Assembly (NCBI RefSeq): GCF_024346315.1
Contig: NZ_JAGQCS010000001.1
Span: 186,001-250,000 of the forward strand
Direction: 5' to 3'
DNA length: 64,000 bases
Origin: Cyanobium sp. ATX 6F1
Lineage (GTDB): Bacteria > Cyanobacteriota > Cyanobacteriia > PCC-6307 > Cyanobiaceae
The position numbers and the translations under genes were made by a program. This document shows, in pieces, positions 34,541 through 49,661 of this stretch. The first letter of the stretch is position 1, and each line of letters begins with the position of its first letter. The notes under the pieces were generated by a model. It ran no database searches, was not told where the DNA came from, and worked only from the letters and a program-made list of their open reading frames with translations.

Positions 34541-35839
34541 ATGACCCTGACGGCCGTTCCGTCCCAGAGCCTGGTGACACCCCAACTCGAAATCTCCGGC
34601 GGCCGCCGTCTCAGTGGGGATCTTCGCGTCAGTGGCGCCAAGAATTCCGCTCTGGTGCTGATGGCGGCCTGCCTGCTGAGCGAAGACGGCCTGCGACTGC
34701 GCAACGTGCCTCCGCTCACCGACATCGCCGCCATGGGCGAGATCCTCGCCGCCCTTGGGGTGGGTGTGCGCCGGGGGGGCGACTGGATCGAAATGGACGG
34801 CCGCACGCTGAACAAATCGGCGCCGCCCTATGAACTGGTGAACAGCCTGCGGGCCAGTTTCTTCTGCATCGGCCCCCTGCTGGCCCGCCTCGGCGTCGCC
34901 CGGGTTCCCCTGCCCGGTGGCTGCCAGATCGGCACCCGTCCCGTGGTGGAGCATGTCAAAGGGCTCAAGGCCCTCGGTGCCCAGGTCACGATCGAGCACG
35001 GGGTGGTCTCGGCGGTGGTCCCGGGCCGCGGCCACCGGCTCAGCGGCGGCCGCATTCACATGGACTGCCCCAGCGTCGGCGCCACCGAGACCCTGATGAT
35101 GGCCGCGGTGCTGGCCGACGGCGAGACGGTGATCGAGAACGCCGCCCTCGAGCCTGAGGTCGTCGATCTGGCCGGTCTGCTGATCGCCATGGGCGCCCGC
35201 ATCCGTGGCGCCGGCACCCCAAGCATCACCATCGTCGGGGTTGATCGCCTGCACGGTGCCGACTACGCCGTGATCCCCGACCGCATTGAAGCCGGCACCT
35301 TCCTGCTGGCCGCCGCCATCACCCGCTCGACCCTGCGGGTGTCGCCGGTGATCCCCGAGCACCTGGGCGCCGTGCTCACCAAGCTCGAAGAGGCGGGCGC
35401 CCTGCTCGAAGCCGATGGCACCGCCATGACCATCTCGGCCGAGACCATCAACGCCGTCGACCTGCGCACCCAGCCCTTCCCCGGTTTCCCCACCGACCTG
35501 CAGGCCCCGTTCATGAGCCTGCTGGCCACCGCCAAGGGCACCAGCGTGATCACCGAGAACATCTTCGAGAACCGCCTGCAGCACGTGGCTGAACTGCAGC
35601 GCATGGGGGCCGCGATCCGCATGCAGGGCAACACCGCCTTCATCGAAGGGGTCCACCGCCTCAGCGGTGCGCCCGTGCAGGGCAGCGACCTGCGGGCCTC
35701 CGCCGCCATGGTGCTGGCGGGTCTGGCGGCAGAGGGGATCACACGGGTGCAGGGGCTGGAGTATCTCGATCGGGGTTACGCCGACTTCGAGGGCAAGCTG
35801 AACGCCGTCGGAGCCTCGATTCGTCGCCACGGCGGCTGA
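34541..35839 (+). CDS. murA: UDP-N-acetylglucosamine 1-carboxyvinyltransferase
   Basis: A 432-residue enolpyruvyl transferase, the first committed step of peptidoglycan synthesis. It shows [18 protein letters not shown] near the N-terminus, the catalytic cysteine loop [16 protein letters not shown], and [17 protein letters not shown] at the C-terminus. The cysteine rather than aspartate at the active site implies fosfomycin sensitivity. The 185 bases upstream hold the promoter but no clear consensus. Confidence 0.97.
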
Positions 35840-39004: not shown

Positions 39005-40375
39005 TCAGCGCTCCAGCCAGCCCCGCAGCTTGCCGGGGTTGAGCAGACCCCTGGGGTCATGGGCCGCCTTGGCGGCCACCTGGTCGGCGTCGATCACCCC
39101 CAGGCCGCCATCCTCGACGGTGAGCACGTGGGGATTGAACAGCACGCCCCCCAGCTCCTTCACCTGGGCGATCAGCTCCGCAAGGGGTCCATCCCCGCTC
39201 CAGCGCACCAACGGCAGCGCCGCCAGCCGCGCCACCCCCTGCTGACGCACCGCTTCGAGGTGCCAGAGCAGGTCGTCGCCCCAACGCCGGCGCAGGGCCG
39301 CGATCGCTGGGCCCTCAGGCTGGGGCAAAAGGAGTTGCAGGTAGGTCCAACCGGGATCCTGGGCGCGCAGGTGCAGGGTGGTGTGGTTCCAGCTCAGCTC
39401 CCGCAGCGGCAGCCCCCTGGCACCCGCCTGGGGGGCCTGCCAGACGATCCGTCCCCCCAGCTGGGGCACCCAGGGCTCCAGCACCGGCAGGGCATCGGGG
39501 GCCGCCAGCAGCAGCAGCCGGTGGCCGGCGGCCGGCGGGCAGCCCGCCGGGCTGGGAAGCCGCCTGGCCAGGGGCGCCTCCAGCAGGCAGAGGGCATTGA
39601 GCAGCAGGGCCGCGGCCGGCAGGGCGCGGGCCGCCTCCAGGGCGGCGTCCCAGTGCTCGAACTCCAGCACCAGTTGCCGCCAGTCCACCGCTTCGGTGGT
39701 CGCCAGGGTGAGGGCGGTGAGCAGGCCGTTGGTGCCGTAGGCGTGGTTGAGCGCCCGGCTGGCGGAGGCATCGAGCTGCAGCAACCTGGGTTCCCGCTCC
39801 AGCGTGACCACCTCCAGGCCCAGCAGATGGCCCGGATCACGCAGGAAGCCCCAGCGGATCGAGCCGATGCCGCCGGAGCCCCCGGCGATGAAGCCGCCGA
39901 GGGTGGCGCTCCGGTAGGTGCTGGGGGCCAGCCGCAGGGCCCGGCCGTGGGGCTCCAGCTGGCGGTCGAGGCTCGCCAGCAGGCAGCCCGCTTCGGCGGT
40001 GACGATGCCGCTGGCCGGATCGAAACCCCGCAACCGGTTCAGCCCACTGAGATCCAGCACCACGCCACCGGCCAAGGGCACGCACTGGCCGTAGTTGCCG
40101 GTGCCCGCCCCCCGCGGCGTCAGCGCCACCTCGTGGCGGGCGCAGGCCGCCGCCACCCGAAGCACGTCATCGACGGATTGAGCCCGCACCACCAACTGGG
40201 CCAGCCGTCCCTGGAGCTGGCGATGCAACAGCGGTGAGTAATCGAAGTAGTCGCTGGAGAGGCGTTCCAATTCGAGGCCCGCGCGCACCAGATCGAGGCC
40301 GCTGAGATCGGCGACCAGCGCCTCGAGCCGCTCGGCGCTGGCCGGAGCGGGCGACTCGTGGGCCGGGCGGGTCAT
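39005..40375 (-). CDS. FAD-binding oxidoreductase, GlcD/VAO type
   Basis: A 456-residue flavoprotein. The start overlaps the amidohydrolase stop in ATGA (40372-40375). FAD binding is shown by ALTPRGAGTGNYGQCVPLAGG and STYRSATLGGFIAGGSGGIGS; the C-terminal region ends with DPRGLLNPGKLRGWL, as in GlcD/lactate-dehydrogenase-like enzymes. The overall length is shorter than glycolate oxidase GlcD. The substrate is unknown and may be related to the amidohydrolase product. Confidence 0.85.
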   Translation of the reverse strand: MTRPAHESPAPASAERLEALVADLSGLDLVRAGLELERLSSDYFDYSPLLHRQLQGRLAQLVVRAQSVDDVLRVAAACARHEVALTPRGAGTGNYGQCVPLAGGVVLDLSGLNRLRGFDPASGIVTAEAGCLLASLDRQLEPHGRALRLAPSTYRSATLGGFIAGGSGGIGSIRWGFLRDPGHLLGLEVVTLEREPRLLQLDASASRALNHAYGTNGLLTALTLATTEAVDWRQLVLEFEHWDAALEAARALPAAALLLNALCLLEAPLARRLPSPAGCPPAAGHRLLLLAAPDALPVLEPWVPQLGGRIVWQAPQAGARGLPLRELSWNHTTLHLRAQDPGWTYLQLLLPQPEGPAIAALRRRWGDDLLWHLEAVRQQGVARLAALPLVRWSGDGPLAELIAQVKELGGVLFNPHVLTVEDGGLGVIDADQVAAKAAHDPRGLLNPGKLRGWLER

Positions 40376-41670
40376 GGGCCCTGGGGTTGCGGTGACAACC
40401 CCGCCAGAAACGGGGAGTCGGTCGGTTCCGGCGCCAGCCACTGACCGGCGCGCAGCACCCGCCGTTGGGGCGGTCGGGCCAGCAGCTCACCCCAGGAGCC
40501 GGCCGAGAGCACCACCAGATCGGCGGGGGCCCCCACCCGCAGCACCCCATCCCAGGCCAGGCCCAGGAGCCGGGCGGCCGCCGTCGTGAACGGCGCCAGC
40601 CCCAGCCGCTGCCAGGGGGCCAGCTGGGCCGCCGCCAACGACTGGCGCAGCAGTTCGATCGGATCAAAGGCGCCGCCGGGATACCAGGGGTCCTGGACGT
40701 TGTCGCCGCCGACTGCCACGGTCACCCCGGCCCGCTGCAACTGCCGGATCGGGGCCAGGGGCCGGCGGCTGGGGGTGGCCTCGCCGCGTCGACCCAGCAG
40801 CCAGAGGTTGGTGAGCGGCAGGGCCACGACCCCCAGGCCCGCCGCCGCCATCGCCTCCGCCAGCCGTTCCAGGGCCGGCGCGCTCAGCAGGCCCAGGCTG
40901 CTGCTGTGGCTGCAGGCCAGGGGCACCCCGAACCCGTGCCGGCGCACCAGGCGGCTCACCAGGGAGACGCCCACCCCGGGCTGGACGTCGGCCTCATCCA
41001 CATGCAGATCCACGCCGCAACCCAGCCCTTCCGCCAGGCGCAACAGGGCAAGCAGCCCCGCCTCTGCCGCCTGGGGCGCCACAAACCCCGGCCCCAGCAC
41101 GCCCCCCAGCAGCCCAGCGGCATCCGCCACCCGCCGCGCCAGGGCCGCCCCCTCGGGCGCCTGCCAGTGGTCGATCGGCACCAGGGCCACCAACTGCAAC
41201 TCGATTCGCCCCTGCCAGCGTTGGCGCAGCTCCAGCAAGGCCTCCCAGCTGACCGCCGCCGCAGGACCAAGGCTGTCGATGTGGCTGCGCACGGCCCGCA
41301 GCCCCGAGGCCCAGGCCAGCCCCAAGGCCCGCTCCCCCCTCTCCAGCACCCGCTCACGCGTGCGGCTGAGGTGCTCCTGGCCGTTGGCCGCCAGGGCTCC
41401 CGCCACGGTGCCGGCTTGGTTGGGATGCTCCGACCAGCTGAAGGCCTTGTCGAGGTGGGCGTGGGGCTCCACCGGCGGGGTCAGGGCCAGGGGGAGCGGC
41501 GCGCCGCCCTGGGGCTCATGGGGCTCCAGGGCGCTGATGCGTCCCTCGGCCACGCGCAGCTGCACCGCCACCAGGCCCTCGCCATCGGCCCTGGGACAGG
41601 CGAGCCAGAGGGGATCAAGCAACGCCCGCGGCAGGAGCAGGGGCGGCAGCGGAGGGCCCGAGCGACTCAC
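40372..41670 (-). CDS. cytosine deaminase-like amidohydrolase
   Basis: A 432-residue metal-dependent hydrolase. The start is GTG overlapping the DUF4359 stop (GTGA, 41667-41670). The metal site is seen in PPVEPHAHLDKAFSW (HxH), GVDLHVDEADVQ and CSHSSSLG, with the final aspartate in AVGGDNVQDPWYPGG. This is the pattern of cytosine deaminase and related imidazole/triazine deaminases. The substrate cannot be told from sequence. Confidence 0.85.
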   Translation of the reverse strand: MSRSGPPLPPLLLPRALLDPLWLACPRADGEGLVAVQLRVAEGRISALEPHEPQGGAPLPLALTPPVEPHAHLDKAFSWSEHPNQAGTVAGALAANGQEHLSRTRERVLERGERALGLAWASGLRAVRSHIDSLGPAAAVSWEALLELRQRWQGRIELQLVALVPIDHWQAPEGAALARRVADAAGLLGGVLGPGFVAPQAAEAGLLALLRLAEGLGCGVDLHVDEADVQPGVGVSLVSRLVRRHGFGVPLACSHSSSLGLLSAPALERLAEAMAAAGLGVVALPLTNLWLLGRRGEATPSRRPLAPIRQLQRAGVTVAVGGDNVQDPWYPGGAFDPIELLRQSLAAAQLAPWQRLGLAPFTTAAARLLGLAWDGVLRVGAPADLVVLSAGSWGELLARPPQRRVLRAGQWLAPEPTDSPFLAGLSPQPQGP

Positions 41671-42107
41671 TTCCGCTCCACCGGGCGGCTGATGGCCTCC
41701 AGCTGCAGGAACTGGCCGGCCCCCGCCAGGGTGGTGACGTGGTAACGGGGCAGATGCAGCCAGGGCAATACCTCCTGCCCCCCCACATCGGTGTTGTAGA
41801 GGCTGAACAGGCCAGCGTTGAAACGACGGGTGTTCGCAGCCGCCAAGGAGCCCAGCAGCTTGCGCTGGCCGTGCACCAGCTCCGGGCAGTTCTGCACCAG
41901 CAGGCCGAGCAGCATCGGCAGACCGTCGTCGCCGCAGATCTCACGGGTGGTCAGGTCCACCAGCCGCTCCCCTGCGTAGAGCTCGAACTCGGCGGGGGTG
42001 GGATTGCTGAACACCAGCGCCGCGCCAGCGGCCAGCGCCGCTCCGCCACCCAGCAACAGGGTCCGCGCTCGCCGGGTCGAGGTGGTGGGCGGGGGGCTCA
42101 ACGGCAA
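41667..42107 (-). CDS. DUF4359-like exported or membrane protein
   Basis: A 146-residue protein. The frame continues upstream through tRNA-His, so a TTG at 42107 (or 42101) is preferred. After a short basic N-terminus comes one membrane/export helix (LLLGGGAALAAGAALVFSNP), then the family-like segment NPTPAEFELYAGERLVDLT and a C-terminal domain with CGDDGLPMLLGLLVQNC, two cysteines that could pair. The call to DUF4359 is by resemblance. It is coupled to the amidohydrolase gene. Confidence 0.7.
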   Translation of the reverse strand: MPLSPPPTTSTRRARTLLLGGGAALAAGAALVFSNPTPAEFELYAGERLVDLTTREICGDDGLPMLLGLLVQNCPELVHGQRKLLGSLAAANTRRFNAGLFSLYNTDVGGQEVLPWLHLPRYHVTTLAGAGQFLQLEAISRPVERK

Positions 42108-42147
42108 GGGAACAGAGGAGTCAGGTTGATAGGATCGCGCAGCCCAC

Positions 42148-42221
42148 GGCGGGCGTAGCCAAGTGGTTAAGGCAGCGGATTGTGATTCCGCCATTCGGGG
42201 GTTCAATTCCCCTCGCTCGCC
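42148..42221 (+). tRNA. tRNA-His (GTG)
   Basis: The acceptor is GCGGGCG (42149-42155) with CGCTCGC (42214-42220). The base G at 42148 opposite discriminator C at 42221 is the extra G-1:C73 pair that marks histidine. The anticodon arm GCGGA-TTGTGAT-TCCGC gives anticodon GTG. CCA is not encoded; a run of five T's begins at 42223. Confidence 0.96.
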
Positions 42222-42260
42222 CTTTTTCTCTTCGCTCCCCTTCGGCTTCGTCCCTCGCCG

Positions 42261-43367
42261 TCAGTCCCCCAGCAGGGCTTCGAGAAGCGTGGCACCCCCG
42301 TTTCTGACCGGATCGTCCGTGGGCAGGCCAAGCCCATTCTGACAAACCTCGATCGCCGTTGATGCCCCGGCCGGATCGAGGCCACTGGTGTTGAGGGCGA
42401 TGGCGCGCACCCGCGGGGGGGCCGCCACGCAGCCGACCGGACGGGCCAGGGCGGCCAGGGCCTCCACCACGGCCACCAGCTGCTCCAGGGGGGGAATCGG
42501 CACCGGCGCCGCTCCCGGCCGCTCCCGGATGCACTCCTGAGCAGCCCGGTGCACCAGCACCAGATCGGTGGGCTGGCTGCCCCGGATCAGGGGCAAGGTG
42601 GCGGTGGAGCCCGGATGGCAGAGGGAGCCCTGGCCCTCCACCAGCAGCAGTCCGTCCTCGGGCAAGCCCTGGCCCGCCTCCAGCACGGCCCGCTCCACCG
42701 CCCCGGCGGCGTAGTCGACGCGCACGGCATCGAGGGGCACCCCTGTGCCGGCGATCAGGATCCCCGCCTGGCCGGTGCCCACGAAGCGGGCGTCCAGCCC
42801 GCGACCCAGGGCCGCGGCCCGCAGCTCCAGGCAGACGCTCATCTTGCCCACGGCCATGTCGCTGCCCACCGCCAGGAGGCGCCGGCCCGGCAACGCCGCG
42901 GCCCGGGCGGCCCCCACCTGCAGCCCCTCGGGCTCCTGGCGCAGGTCCCAGATCCACTGGCCCTCCCCCACCAGGGCCGCCAGGGCGGGGTCGTCCCCCA
43001 GGCGCGTATGCAGCCCGCTGGCGACGTTCAGGCCCGCCGCCAGCGCCGCGAGCAGATCCCGCCGCAACGGCTCCGGCAGCAGCCCGCCGGAGGGGGCCAG
43101 CCCCACCACCGCCACCTGCGGCCCCAGGGGCAGGGCCTCCTGCAGCGAGGCCAGGATCGGCACCGCCCGCTGAATTCCCGTGAGCGCCCCGAGATCTTCG
43201 CCCGCGTGGGCCGGGTCCACCACGGCCACGATCGGTCCGGAGCGATAGCGGAGCATCGCCAGACCGGTCTTGCCGGAGAGGTTGTCGAGGCCGCCGTGCT
43301 GCAGCAGCACCAGCGGCGCCTGGGGATCCAGCGGTGAACGGGGGCCCAGCGCCAGGGCCGCGCTCAT
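42261..43367 (-). CDS. DUF1611 protein (DgcN-like P-loop protein)
   Basis: A 368-residue protein. The N-terminal third is a Rossmann-like domain (VVDPAHAGEDLGALTGIQRA). The C-terminal part has a P-loop variant, LLAVGSDMAVGKMSVCLEL, and downstream motifs VGTGQAGILIAGTGVPLDAV and LLVEGQGSLCHPGS, which identify DUF1611. One member of this family, DgcN, acetylates D-glutamate in marine bacteria and pairs with an enolase-superfamily racemase. Here its start overlaps the stop of a dipeptide epimerase gene in ATGA. Confidence 0.85.
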   Translation of the reverse strand: MSAALALGPRSPLDPQAPLVLLQHGGLDNLSGKTGLAMLRYRSGPIVAVVDPAHAGEDLGALTGIQRAVPILASLQEALPLGPQVAVVGLAPSGGLLPEPLRRDLLAALAAGLNVASGLHTRLGDDPALAALVGEGQWIWDLRQEPEGLQVGAARAAALPGRRLLAVGSDMAVGKMSVCLELRAAALGRGLDARFVGTGQAGILIAGTGVPLDAVRVDYAAGAVERAVLEAGQGLPEDGLLLVEGQGSLCHPGSTATLPLIRGSQPTDLVLVHRAAQECIRERPGAAPVPIPPLEQLVAVVEALAALARPVGCVAAPPRVRAIALNTSGLDPAGASTAIEVCQNGLGLPTDDPVRNGGATLLEALLGD

Positions 43368-44446
43368 GGCCGGCCGATCCAGCGCACCCCCAACCCCGGC
43401 CGCTCCGACGGCCGCACCCGGTCGCCCTCCAGCGGCGGGCCCTCGAAGGGGTCATCCACCAGGTTCAGGTGGCTGTCCAGGTCGGGCCAGCGCACCAGGG
43501 GCAGCAGCTGGGCGGCGGCGCCGTTGAGCAGGGCGCTGTCGGAGTAGCAGCCGAGCATCAGATCAAGCCCCAGCCGCTGGGCGACGCCGGCCATCAACAG
43601 GGCCTCGCTGAGGCCCCCGGTCTTGAGAAGCTTGAGGTTCACCCCATCCACATGGGGAGCGAGCCGCAGCAGATCCTCGAGGTTCCAGCAACTCTCATCG
43701 GCCACCAGGGGAATCGGGCAGTGCAGATCGAGGGCGGCGAACCCCGCCGTATCGGCCTCGGGATCCGCCAGGGGCGCCAGGGGCTGCTCCACCAGCACCA
43801 CCCCCTGCTCCGCCAGCCAGGGGATCAGCCGGCAGGCCGCCTGCAGGTCCCAGCCGCCGTTGGCATCCACCTGCAGCTCCAGCGCCTCACCCTGGGCCTG
43901 GCCCTGGCGCGTCAGGGCTTCCGCCACCGCCCGCACCAGGGCGCGGTCATGCTCCACCCCATCGGGGCTGCCCAGCTTGAGCTTGAGACGGCGCGCCGGC
44001 AGCTGCAGCCACCAGCGCTCCAGCCGCGAAAGCACCTGCTCCACGCTGCCCAGCCCCAGGGTGAGGCTGGTGGGCTTCACGGCCGTTGGATCCAGGCCCC
44101 AGAGCCGCCAGAGGGGCTGCCCCAGCCGCTGGCCCCACCAGTCATGCAGGGCCAGATCCAGGCCGCAGCGGGCCGGTGGCGAGAGCTCTGCGAGCAGGGG
44201 CTCGAGGGCCTGGCGATTGGCGGGGTCCCGTCCCGCCAGGGCCGGTGCCAGGGCCCGCAGTTCGGCTTCCACCGGCTCCAGGTGGTAAGCCCGGTGACCG
44301 GTCTCGAAGCCGCCGGTTTCCCCCTGGCCTTCGATCCCTTCATGGATCAGCCGCACCCGCAGACGCGTGACCGCAGCGGTGGTGCCGCGGCTGATCGCCA
44401 GCGGCACGGCCTTGGTGAGCACGAAGCGATCGAGGCGCAGCTCCAT
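43364..44446 (-). CDS. dipeptide epimerase (enolase superfamily)
   Basis: A 360-residue enolase-superfamily enzyme, start MELRLDRFVLTKAVPLAISR. The catalytic KxK is at about 155-157 (RRLKLKLGS), metal ligands at D194 (VDANGG), E220 (VEQPL) and D250 (VADES), and the opposing lysine in VNLKLLKTGG. A DLD motif near 322-324 (WPDLDSHLNL) is typical of L-Ala-D/L-Glu epimerases, where it holds the dipeptide amino group. It could recycle murein peptides, or act as a DgcA-like racemase given its DUF1611 partner. Confidence 0.88.
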   Translation of the reverse strand: MELRLDRFVLTKAVPLAISRGTTAAVTRLRVRLIHEGIEGQGETGGFETGHRAYHLEPVEAELRALAPALAGRDPANRQALEPLLAELSPPARCGLDLALHDWWGQRLGQPLWRLWGLDPTAVKPTSLTLGLGSVEQVLSRLERWWLQLPARRLKLKLGSPDGVEHDRALVRAVAEALTRQGQAQGEALELQVDANGGWDLQAACRLIPWLAEQGVVLVEQPLAPLADPEADTAGFAALDLHCPIPLVADESCWNLEDLLRLAPHVDGVNLKLLKTGGLSEALLMAGVAQRLGLDLMLGCYSDSALLNGAAAQLLPLVRWPDLDSHLNLVDDPFEGPPLEGDRVRPSERPGLGVRWIGRP

Positions 44447-45900: not shown

Positions 45901-45941
45901 TACGTTTGGGCCCTGCCCCCTGGCCCCTGGGCCAGTTCCCG

Positions 45942-47087
45942 ATGCCGTCTGCGCCCACCTCGATCGGTCTGGTGTTCGGCGGAGTGTCCGGGGAGCATGC
46001 GGTCTCGATCCGCTCGGCCGCCACCGTGGCCGGCGCCCTTGGCCGCGGTGCCAATGCAGAGCGCTACCGGCTGTTGTGCTTCTACATCGACCAGGCCGGC
46101 CATTGGTGGCCGCCGGCGGTGGCCGAGGCGGTGCTGGCGGCGGGCTGCCCCCCCGAGCCGGAGGAGCAGCCGGCCACGTCGGTGCGGCCGGGCTTCCAGG
46201 GGCTGCCCGCCGGGGCGGCTGAGGTGGAGGTCTGGTTTCCGGTGCTGCACGGCCCCAACGGGGAAGACGGCACGATCCAGGGGCTGTTCACCCTGATGCA
46301 GGTGCCCTTCGTGGGCTCCGGGGTGCTGGGCTCGGCCGTGGGCATGGACAAGCAGGCGATGAAGGCCGCCTTCGCCGCCGCCGGCCTGCCCCAGGTGCCC
46401 TATGTCTGCGTGCAGGCCGCCGAACTGGACGCCCCCCAGCGCGCGGCTGCCCTGCTGGAGCGCCTGGAGGCCAGCCTCGGCTATCCCTGTTTCATCAAGC
46501 CCGCCAACCTGGGGTCCTCGGTGGGCATCAGCAAAGCCACCGACCGCGCCAGCCTCGAAGAGGGCCTGAAAGAGGCCGCTCGCCACGACCGGCGCCTGGT
46601 GGTGGAAAAGGGCATCGTCGCCCGCGAGCTTGAATGCGCCGTGCTCGGCCGCGAGGCGATGCGGGCCTCGGTGTTGGGGGAAATCCGCTTCGACGCCGAC
46701 TGGTACGACTACACCACCAAGTACACCGAGGGGCTCAGCCACACCGTGATCCCCGCCGATGTGCCAGAGGCGGTGAGCGAGCGGGCCCGGGCGCTGGCGA
46801 TCCAGGCCTGCCGGGCGGTGGCGGCCGAAGGGCTGGCCAGGGTCGACTTCTTCTATGAAGAAAGTGGCGGCGACGCGGGCGGCGCCGCAAGCGCTGTCGA
46901 AGCTGGTGGCGGCACCCTCTGGCTCAACGAGATCAACACCCTCCCCGGCTTCACCAACCAGAGCATGTATCCGCTGCTCTGGGCCGCCACGGGCCTGCCG
47001 CTGGAGGAGCTGGTGCACCAACTGGTGCAGCTGGCGGGAGAATGGTCCATCGACACCCACCCAGACAGGGAGGCACAGGCGGCATGA
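45942..47087 (+). CDS. ddl: D-alanine--D-alanine ligase
   Basis: A 381-residue ATP-grasp ligase. The start at [19 protein letters not shown] is the family N-terminus. It shows [51 protein letters not shown] and the metal-binding [17 protein letters not shown]. The extra Gly/Ala loop before the last motif is a small insertion. Its stop overlaps the next gene start in ATGA. Confidence 0.96.
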
Positions 47088-47494
47088 GTCAGGGACTGCT
47101 GTGGTTGCCGTTGCTGGTGGTGTTCGTGCTGCTCACCGCCCTGGGCTGGCTGGAGCGGCGGCGCCAGCGGCTGTTCCAGGAGTGGGCGGAAGGCTCTGAG
47201 CTGGCCAAGCTCGATGGCTGCGGCGCGGCCCGACTGATCGATGGTGAACTGAGCTGGAGCCGTTTCCACGCCGGCAACCTGGAGCTGGAGGACACCTTCA
47301 CGATCAAGTCGCTGGAGCTCGTCGAGCTGCTGGCCCTGGGATCCGGAGAAGCGCCGCTCACCGAGGAAAGCCAGGGCAGCTGCCGCCTGCGGCTGGTGGG
47401 CTCCGGTATTCAGAAGGATCTCCCCTTCGCCGATGCCGAACGGGCCCGCCGCTGGATGGACGATCTGATGTCGCGCTCCCGCTGCGAACTGTGA
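47084..47494 (+). CDS. membrane-anchored conserved protein between ddl and ftsQ
   Basis: A 136-residue protein, starting [20 protein letters not shown]. One N-terminal transmembrane helix is followed by a soluble domain of ~100 residues ([40 protein letters not shown]). It is coupled at both ends, to ddl by ATGA and to ftsQ by GTGA, so it is very likely made with them. No family is recognised. Its position suggests a wall or division role. Confidence 0.75.
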
Positions 47495-48357
47495 GTTCCA
47501 AGCCGGAGTCCCCGCCCGCAGGACCCCGCCAGGTGCTCCCCGCCGGCGCCGAGCGGCGGCGCCAGCTGCGCCAGCAACGACGCACTCAGCTGCTGCGCCA
47601 CAGCTGGCAGGTGGTGGTGCTCAGCGCCGCCGCGGCCGGCCTGGGCTGGGTGCTGTTGCGCCAGGGCTGGACCCTGCAGAGCCCTGCGCAGGTGGAGGTT
47701 TCCGGAAGCCAGCAGGTGAGCCGCGAGCAGGTGATCCAGGCCGCCCAGCTGCGGTTCCCCTTGCCGCTGCTGGAACTGCGTCCCCAGGCGATCACGGCGG
47801 CACTGGCGGCGGCCCTGCCGGTGGAAAACGTCCAGGTGAGCCGGCTGATGCTGCCGCCCCGGCTGCGCATCCAGCTGGTGGACCGCCAGGCGGTGGCCCG
47901 GGCCGAACGGCGCACCCCCCGGGGGCTTGAGCTGGGCTATGTGGATCGTTTCGGCAGCTGGATGAGCCGGCGCCAGCAGCAGGGGGCCGGTGGCGCCGGC
48001 CCAGCCTCCAGGACCACCGTGGTCGGCTGGCAGGAGCGCTATCGCCCCGCCCTCGGACAGGTGCTGGCCCGCCGCGATGACCTCGGTAGCCCCCTGCTGG
48101 AGGTGCGCTTCGAGCCCAGTGGCTCCCTGTGGCTGCGCACCGCCTCCCTGGGGTTGATCCGCCTGGGTCCCCCCGACGCCCAGCTGGAGCGCCAGTTGGA
48201 GGTGCTCAGCCACCTGTCCGAGGAACTGCCCGCCAAGGTGCGCAACCTCAAATTGCAGTCCATCGACCTGAGCAACCCCGACCAACCGGAGCTGGGACTG
48301 CCAGCCCCCTTCAACGGCAGCGGCGGCAAGGGAGCCACTCCGGCCGGGGTGGACTGA
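47491..48357 (+). CDS. ftsQ: cell division protein FtsQ
   Basis: A 288-residue bitopic protein with a GTG start overlapping the previous stop. A basic cytoplasmic tail ([20 protein letters not shown]) precedes one membrane helix ([16 protein letters not shown]) and a POTRA domain ([20 protein letters not shown]). Sequence beyond POTRA is divergent, as usual for cyanobacterial FtsQ. It stands about 200 bases before ftsZ. Confidence 0.9.
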
Positions 48358-48554
48358 GTGCAGCGCCGTCCCCCTGGGCTCAGGCCGATTGCCGGCTGTG
48401 GGGAATCCGGCAAAGGTGTATCAGGAGACGAAGACCCATCGCGCTTTCCACCGACATAATGCTGCCCATGGTCTTCGGAGCGGTGCGCCCCATGGAACAG
48501 CCCCCCGAGGCCCTGCCGACCGTCCCCATCCCTCTATTTGCGGTACCCGCCGAC
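48358..48554. other. ftsQ-ftsZ intergenic region
   Basis: About 200 bases upstream of the preferred ftsZ start. In-frame ATGs at 48459, 48468 and 48492 could also be used and would lengthen FtsZ by 21-32 residues. A CATAAT at 48455-48460 resembles a -10 box but has no matching -35, so no promoter is called. No other structure is seen. Confidence 0.4.
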
Positions 48555-49661
48555 ATGTCCCTGAGCCCCGCCAGCAGCAACGGCATCGTTCCGAGCCAAT
48601 CCGCGCGGATCGAGGTCATCGGCGTCGGCGGCGGCGGCAGCAATGCGGTCAACCGCATGATTGCCTCCGACCTCCAGGGGTTGAGTTATCGGGTGCTCAA
48701 CACCGACGCCCAGGCCCTGATCCAGTCGGCGGCGCAGCAACGGGTTCAGCTGGGCCAGAAACTCACCCGTGGCCTCGGCGCCGGAGGCAACCCGGTGATC
48801 GGCCAGAAGGCGGCCGAGGAATCCCGGGCCGAACTGGCCCAGACCCTGCAGGGCGCTGATCTGGTGTTCATTGCCGCCGGCATGGGCGGCGGCACCGGCA
48901 CCGGCGCCGCCCCGATCCTCGCGGAGGTGGCCAAGGAGTGCGGCGCCCTCACGGTGGCGATCGTCACCAAGCCCTTCAGCTTCGAGGGCCGCAAGCGCAT
49001 GCGCCAGGCCGAAGAGGGCATCGCCCGCCTGGCCGAGCATGTGGACACCCTGATCGTGATCCCCAACGACCGGCTGCGGGAGGCGATCGCGGGCGCGCCG
49101 CTGCAGGAGGCCTTCCGCGCCGCCGACGACGTGCTGCGCAGCGGCGTCAAGGGCATCAGCGACATCATCACCAGGCCGGGCCTGGTGAACGTGGACTTCG
49201 CCGATGTGCGCTCGGTGATGGCCGAGGCCGGCACCGCCCTGCTGGGCCTTGGTGTGGGCTCGGGCCGCTCCCGTGCCACCGAGGCCGCCCAGGCGGCGAT
49301 CAGCAGCCCCCTGCTGGAGGCGGCCCGCATCGACGGCGCCAAAGGCGTGGTGATCAACGTCTGCGGTGGCAAGGACATGACCCTCGAGGACATGACCAGC
49401 GCCGCTGAGGTGATCTACGACGTGGTCGACCCCGAGGCCAACATCATCGTTGGAGCCGTGGTCGACGAAAGCCTTGAGGGCGAGATTCACGTCACCGTGA
49501 TCGCCACAGGCTTCGATGCCGGCAACACCTACCGCCCGGAGGCCTCGATCAGCAGCTTCGTCTCCTCCCTGGGCTCCTCCAACGCCAGCACCAGCGAAAC
49601 GGAGCTGCGGGGCGCCACGATTCCGGCTTTCCTGCTCAACCGCCAGAAACACGAGGGCTGA
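48555..49661 (+). CDS. ftsZ: cell division protein FtsZ
   Basis: A tubulin-like GTPase of 368 residues from the preferred ATG ([20 protein letters not shown]), which matches picocyanobacterial length. It has [14 protein letters not shown], the GTP loop [14 protein letters not shown], and the T7 catalytic loop [14 protein letters not shown]. The C-terminal conserved peptide is short ([15 protein letters not shown]). It builds the division ring. The start is the only unsure point. Confidence 0.95.

Follow-up and report, generated by a model that had tools for sequence, protein, structure and literature searches.

The stretch of DNA analysed here (the window) comprises 64,000 nucleotides of Cyanobium sp. 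ATX 6F1 (contig NZ_JAGQCS010000001.1, positions 186,001 to 250,000 of the forward strand) and contains two coupled genes, which encode an epimerase or racemase of the enolase superfamily and a protein with a DUF1611 domain (Table 1). As described in an earlier note on this DNA, the two open reading frames (ORFs) share the four bases ATGA, and the DUF1611 protein possesses a variant P-loop, which was located at residues 168-176 as GSDMAVGKM. A scan for promoters and terminators yielded no site of either kind. It is rather likely that the pair is a two-enzyme module working like the marine enzymes DgcN and DgcA (D-glutamate to N-acetyl-D-glutamate to N-acetyl-L-glutamate), to which it is only distantly related. 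The earlier note had already connected the pair with D-glutamate and DgcN/DgcA, and this part of it gained support from the fold, the residues and the near-absolute co-occurrence of both genes.

Table 1. Position of the coupled genes, their motifs and neighbouring features in the window.
Feature	Position	Strand	Remarks
Epimerase/racemase gene, enolase superfamily, DgcA/AEE-like	43364-44446	minus	ORF, 360 aa
DUF1611 gene, DgcN-like	42261-43367	minus	ORF, 368 aa; N-terminal Rossmann-like and C-terminal P-loop domain
ATGA overlap of 4 bases, epimerase stop and DUF1611 start	43364-43367	minus	Direct reading
P-loop variant GSDMAVGKM of DUF1611, residues 168-176	42840-42866	minus	Met replaces Ser/Thr of Walker A
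Asp218 of DUF1611	42714-42716	minus	Candidate specificity residue
Arg355 of DUF1611	42303-42305	minus	Candidate binder of the side-chain carboxylate
KLK motif of the epimerase, K155 and K157	43976-43984	minus	Catalytic lysine motif
DLD motif of the epimerase, residues 322-324	43475-43483	minus	
Tyr301 of the epimerase	43544-43546		Motif GCYSDS
tRNA-His	42149-42222		Downstream of the pair
miaB (presumed)	from 44536		Divergent, upstream of the pair
ddl	45906-47087		Passes at least one NCBIfam cut-off
ftsZ	48129-49661		Passes at least one NCBIfam cut-off
murA	34541-35839		Passes at least one NCBIfam cut-off

The DUF1611 protein matched the Pfam models DUF1611 (PF07755, 202.6 bits) and DUF1611_N (PF17396, 92.9 bits) above their gathering cut-offs. 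Its predicted model (mean predicted local distance difference test score, pLDDT, 94.5) showed the highest structural similarity to 2obn (Z 48.0), 2g0t (Z 37.8) and 7xrj (Z 36.1). The first of these, Ava_3511 of Anabaena variabilis, is an apparent orthologue with 50% identity, and its PDB title refers to a DUF1611 family protein and states no function. The entry 7xrj is entitled N-acetyltransferase DgcN-25328; this DgcN of marine Proteobacteria has the same two-domain DUF1611 fold over 329 aligned residues (root mean square deviation 3.4; 34% identity in the structural alignment). After 7xrj the structural score falls to 13.6, where P-loop enzymes of the CobB/BioD/HypB kind follow, which align with the C-terminal domain only. 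At the last position of the Walker A motif, Ser or Thr occurs in none of the 98 aligned sequences and Met in 92 of them. To judge from these sequences, the P-loop is probably a nucleotide site repurposed for CoA.

Residues were compared among 88 DUF1611 sequences of the epimerase-linked type, three DgcN sequences and four sequences linked to racemases dependent on pyridoxal phosphate (PLP), with columns regarded as conserved if at least 95% of the 88 sequences agreed. Most of these columns are the same in all three sets. The GxDxxxGKM loop, D218, R355 and N326-T327 of the window protein are common to the three DgcN sequences, and D218 and R355 are conserved in the epimerase-linked type, whereas the four PLP-linked sequences possess Gln and Ser/Thr at these positions. 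The PLP-linked set is more distant, and shared ancestry alone could therefore yield the latter pattern.

The epimerase exceeded the Pfam cut-offs of MR_MLE_C (104.9 bits) and MR_MLE_N (38.1 bits). The catalytic lysines K155, K157 and K272 as well as the metal ligands D194, E220 and D250, whose roles we presume from the enolase superfamily, are all intact. All catalytic residues, the arginine of the ISRG motif and the DLD motif are the same in DgcA, the racemase of N-acetyl-D-glutamate, whereas the DgcA sequences examined read GCM[LV]G in place of GCYSDS. DLD is the DxD motif expected of L-Ala-D/L-Glu epimerases, where it serves the amino group of the dipeptide, and the earlier note had seen in it an argument for murein recycling. 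This argument falls, because DLD is present not only in the cyanobacterial epimerases, in YcjG of E. coli and in 3iji, 3jva and 3rit, but also in all three annotated DgcA examined and in 4gfi, which is DgcA-like by sequence. The motif therefore does not discriminate between N-acetyl-Glu and L-Ala-Glu and is unusable for calling murein recycling.

The coupling of both genes was followed in 292 genomes of the phylum (threshold E<=1e-10 for either protein), a check of co-occurrence which the earlier note had proposed and which turned out in favour of a linked pair. Of these genomes, 82 gave a DUF1611 match and 86 an epimerase match; both were present in 81 and neither in 205 (Fisher p = 7e-65, which is not a count of events, as the genomes share ancestry). 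The only genome with DUF1611 alone (G211) contains a divergent PLP-linked paralogue of 31% identity. Five genomes showed the epimerase alone, four with matches of 28-37% identity (E 4e-11 to 1e-32) and one, G266, with a truncated remnant. In 75 of the 81 genomes the genes lie on one strand and at most 2.1 kb apart (65 of these at most 206 bases), and the epimerase comes first in 70 of them. DUF1611 comes first in the other five, which all belong to the family f38, where the frames of epimerase and DUF1611 overlap. The remaining six genomes keep both genes though apart. In the class of the window, 76 of 139 sampled genomes possess the pair. Synechococcus elongatus, used as a control, gave a DUF1611 match. 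A larger operon was also considered and rejected, as clustering of 38 regions of the phylum and 80 loci across phyla, together with Pfam analysis of chosen neighbours, revealed no general third partner.

Loss of the pair was followed in the window's own family, where 23 sampled genomes have no intact pair; in 12 of these the syntenic region next to miaB was read. In G266, epimerase residues 1-127 run in frame into DUF1611 residues ~259-364, and in G139 epimerase residues 1-33 and DUF1611 residues 301-364 are left. Each remnant misses a stretch across the junction, so that a single deletion could account for the absence of both genes; the other ten genomes showed no remnant at E<=1e-3 in the syntenic stretch. 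The amidohydrolase, the flavin adenine dinucleotide (FAD) oxidase and miaB, which neighbour the pair, are retained in all 12 genomes and were therefore rejected as members of the module.

The coupling extends to other phyla. A DUF1611 alignment was used to scan 84,980 species genomes, and the best 80 loci, picked by two peptide patterns, of at least 588 stretches (at least 580 relatives) were inspected. An epimerase was found on the same strand in the flanking sequence fetched (4 kb at most) in 61 of the 80 loci, with the epimerase first in 39 and DUF1611 first in 22. Linked loci occurred in Cyanobacteriota (23/29), Bacteroidota (7/8), Chloroflexota (3/6), Pseudomonadota (4/4) and others, and all 15 loci of haloarchaea (listed as Methanobacteriota) were linked; no linked locus was found in Gemmatimonadota (0/2), Sumerlaeota (0/2) and Armatimonadota (0/1). 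Haloarchaea, to our knowledge, have no murein. Thirteen of the 19 unlinked loci were flanked by no less than 1.2 kb on either side. When the source genomes of 14 unlinked loci were searched genome-wide (all but the short-contig loci L079, L083, L109, L126 and L135), 13 contained an epimerase elsewhere. Several non-cyanobacterial genomes have more than one enolase-family match, and the orthology of the epimerase is therefore less sure there. The genome-wide search of Candidatus Spechtbacteria (L107) revealed no epimerase; its divergent DUF1611 has a D-Ala-D-Ala carboxypeptidase upstream, separated by one small ORF, and a MurC-like ligase (253.9 bits, under the cut-off) on the other side (L107:2087-6478). 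Six plasmid regions with DUF1611 comprised three annotated dgcN-dgcA pairs, one PLP racemase and two regions without an annotated racemase nearby. The annotated genes are adjacent in Ruegeria, Vibrio pelagius and Pantoea, and the order dgcN-dgcA of these three pairs differs from the order prevailing in the phylum of the window.

The functions of DgcN and DgcA are given in excerpts of PMC11747546 (EC 2.3.1.312 and 5.1.1.25) and of PMC12363236. Beside the observed genes, coupling, conserved residues and fold, we infer the substrate, the acyl donor, the direction and the fate of the product for the window pair. DUF1611 would use acetyl-CoA, the phospho-ADP part of which is probably held by the modified P-loop, to N-acetylate D-glutamate or a closely similar acidic D-amino acid. 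The enolase-fold partner would racemise the acetylated product, with K155/K157 and K272 on opposite faces of the alpha carbon and an Mg ion coordinated by D194, E220 and D250. The resulting N-acetyl-L-glutamate might be deacetylated or enter arginine synthesis, and the D-glutamate might originate from murein turnover or from outside the cell.

Several observations weigh against an assignment to DgcN and DgcA. Although these are the best NCBIfam matches of the two window proteins, the DgcN model NF041892 gave 207.6 bits at a cut-off of 480 (43%) and the DgcA model NF042940 gave 152 bits at a cut-off of 400 (38%). The features by which these families are recognised are nevertheless present, namely the pairing of the gene with an enolase-fold racemase for DgcN, and the catalytic lysines together with three metal ligands for DgcA. 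With both proteins far below the cut-offs, the pair is therefore regarded as DgcN/DgcA-like in its working, without formal membership. By comparison, however, a haloarchaeal pair also remained below both cut-offs (252.7 and 250.5 bits), although haloarchaea are reportedly named in the title of the DgcN paper of Yu et al. (2023; ISME J 17:537). In a quick tree, for which four sequences of the PLP-linked type were set as outgroup, DgcN and the window DUF1611 fall into different main groups. Furthermore, D51 and E302 are common to epimerase-linked and PLP-linked DUF1611 and absent from DgcN; the DgcN lineage has therefore diverged as well. Two of the plasmid regions (L035 and L037) lack an annotated racemase nearby, and G053 contains a full-length epimerase match of 36% identity, the best of the four mentioned above, without a DUF1611 match. 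Tyr301 was seen in almost every cyanobacterial epimerase examined, in both planctomycete ones and in an unclassified one, whereas most others, including DgcA and YcjG, have Met. This residue may tune the acyl or N-terminal pocket.

The epimerase phylogeny was tried as a discriminator and failed. YcjG, a dipeptide epimerase according to excerpts of PMC2954226, nests within the DgcA clade, and the enolase fold alone therefore cannot separate the two activities. The nearest solved epimerase structure is 3iji, which branches basally in the cyanobacterial-Melainabacteria-Bacteroidota group (support 91); in this quick tree, support is from the Shimodaira-Hasegawa-like approximate likelihood ratio test (SH-aLRT) only, and long branches join at the outgroup. 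We take 3iji to be a dipeptide epimerase of B. thetaiotaomicron. The information lies in the partner genes and not in the epimerase sequence.

The best surviving alternative, which appears improbable but deserves attention, is recycling of murein dipeptides, in which an ordinary L-Ala-D/L-Glu epimerase would take its substrate from a YkfC-like endopeptidase, with DUF1611 as an accessory of the same pathway. The genome of the window encodes an SH3b-NlpC/P60 protein close to 2evr and 2hbw (193 and 185 bits), which we take to be AvPCP and NpPCP. These represent a cyanobacterial type of the endopeptidase, as excerpts of PMC2954226 indicate. Two S66 carboxypeptidase-like proteins were detected in addition, as were five Mur ligases, namely MurC, MurD, MurE and two of the MurF type, one of which is fused to alanine racemase; all five matches stay below the Mpl cut-off. 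L-Ala-D-Glu may therefore well be made in this organism. Retention of DLD and the closeness to 3iji fit such a role, as does one genome, G123, in which the endopeptidase gene and the pair share a strand at a distance of 2.7 kb (G123:C218:23262-28644), and which counts likewise against a DgcN/DgcA-like function. Among the 70 genomes with both, however, G123 is the only one with the endopeptidase within 5 kb; in the other 69 the distance is at least 16 kb, or the contigs differ (place tables compared by eye). A YkfC-like endopeptidase was detected in 132 of the 139 class members, 62 of which lack the pair, and six members have the pair without a detected endopeptidase, so that no positive association was seen (odds 0.19, p 0.13). 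The pairs of haloarchaea also speak against murein recycling, as does the finding of DUF1611 as partner of the epimerase in nearly every genome examined. As the main role of the pair, recycling of the own cell wall is made improbable by the association test and the haloarchaeal pairs.

The fold, the catalytic residues and DLD of the window epimerase are the same in the L-Ala-D/L-Glu epimerases YcjG (1jpd) and 3iji; the score with the L-Ala-D/L-Glu epimerase model NF011708 (YcjG) was 103.6 bits at a cut-off of 343. A murein endopeptidase, YkfC or MpaA, is a usual though not strictly defining neighbour of such epimerases. In the own genome the epimerase gene does not stand beside one, the sole NlpC/P60 match being located on contig C8; no search for MpaA was made. 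The partner enzyme of YcjG is MpaA, and ykfB adjoins the endopeptidase gene ykfC, also in B. thetaiotaomicron (excerpts of PMC2954226), whereas the partner of the window epimerase is DUF1611. Contig C8 additionally carries an 859-aa frame in which a MurF-type ligase is fused with a complete alanine racemase (L164:28-2604; NF008897 564 bits, cut-off 804; TIGR00492 283 bits, above its cut-off); the SH3b-NlpC/P60 gene follows ~1 kb downstream, and a separate MurF (L160) is also present in the genome.

It is unlikely that DUF1611 is instead a P-loop ATPase or ligase of the dethiobiotin-synthetase kind, which activates the carboxylate of D-glutamate or of a gamma-D-Glu-peptide and supplies the epimerase with its substrate. 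The C-terminal domain does resemble CobB-like, HypB and BioD enzymes (Z 12-14), and MurC/MurD occur among the Foldseek matches with a low TM-score, but the Ser/Thr which normally binds Mg in Walker A is missing from every aligned sequence, and the closest relative with a named activity (7xrj) is an N-acetyltransferase. Least probable of all is the same chemistry on another acidic D-amino acid or its amide (D-Asp, D-Gln). In its favour one could adduce Tyr301, which characterises the cyanobacterial group and the epimerases nearest to it; against it, R20 of the ISRG motif and the remaining active-site residues agree with those of DgcA and YcjG, whose preference for glutamate we take from papers or presume.

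A second type of DUF1611, which is linked to PLP racemases, was found in seven of the 292 genomes, six of which also possess the first type. A gene of the Ala_racemase_N cluster was present in all seven fetched regions (L058-L064). It adjoins DUF1611 in the six regions where both frames were resolved, with DUF1611 first; L064 yielded the racemase frame alone. One of the seven PLP-type neighbours was assigned by Pfam and, together with that of V. parahaemolyticus, analysed with NCBIfam, and the other six were grouped by blastp clustering. The neighbour tested reached 386 bits with the ornithine racemase Orr (cut-off 480). The same arrangement of DUF1611 and an ornithine-racemase-like PLP protein occurs on the V. 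parahaemolyticus plasmid (L036).

DUF1611 thus stands beside racemases of two unrelated folds and can therefore be read as a general racemase partner. Tentatively, and with clearly less confidence than for the DgcN/DgcA-like function itself, the whole family may consist of P-loop amino-acid N-acyltransferases outside the GNAT family that were recruited together with two unrelated racemase folds. Members paired with the enolase fold would act on acidic D-amino acids (Arg355, Asp218) and those paired with ornithine-racemase-like PLP proteins on basic or neutral ones (Ser/Thr355, Gln218). The cyanobacterial glutamate version would then pass wall-derived D-glutamate as N-acetyl-L-glutamate straight into the synthesis of arginine and cyanophycin.

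DgcN and DgcA are known and were named by NCBIfam; new is the widening of the DgcN/DgcA-like kind to many phyla. The curated cut-offs exclude the cyanobacterial, haloarchaeal, Bacteroidota and Melainabacteria-like pairs tested. For DUF1611, a domain that has had a released structure since 2007 but was given no role, a testable function is now at hand. If it is correct, cyanobacteria possess an acetylation-gated route from D-glutamate to L-glutamate or arginine, which is separate from glutamate racemase. The earlier note had also considered a step not yet described in cyanobacteria. This stands only insofar as no paper linking DUF1611 or DgcN with cyanobacterial D-glutamate metabolism was found among open-licence papers, which is weak evidence of absence. 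Excerpts of a paper on a land-plant epimerase (PMC3605383) and of PMC10845958 added nothing decisive.

Regarding the surroundings of the pair, the cell wall genes mentioned in the earlier note were recovered in the case of murA, ddl and ftsZ, while ftsQ is unconfirmed, as the candidate ORF (47491-48357) had no NCBIfam match at E<=1e-40. That ddl and ftsZ lie close to the pair is a matter of synteny in the window's family and is no evidence of a shared function. The ORF from 44536 is presumed to be miaB from its sequence. An S33-type hydrolase occurs at isolated DUF1611 loci (L109 by Pfam, L125 and L135 by clustering). In an Eremiobacter genome (L145:5125-7856), genes for a family-5 solute-binding protein and a C39-like peptidase come after the pair, possibly for uptake of a source of D-glutamate; clustering placed a relative of the solute-binding protein near DUF1611 in L136 and a relative of the peptidase near DUF1611 in L113.

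In the window, the amidohydrolase (cytosine-deaminase-like; PRK07583 276.6 bits, cut-off 403) and the GlcD-like FAD oxidase form a block at 39005-41670 on the minus strand. The longest frame of a DUF4359 gene (41667-42206, minus strand) begins within tRNA-His; its true start therefore lies further downstream. Short matches at about residues 2-20 of this frame in five relatives are probably due to the tRNA.

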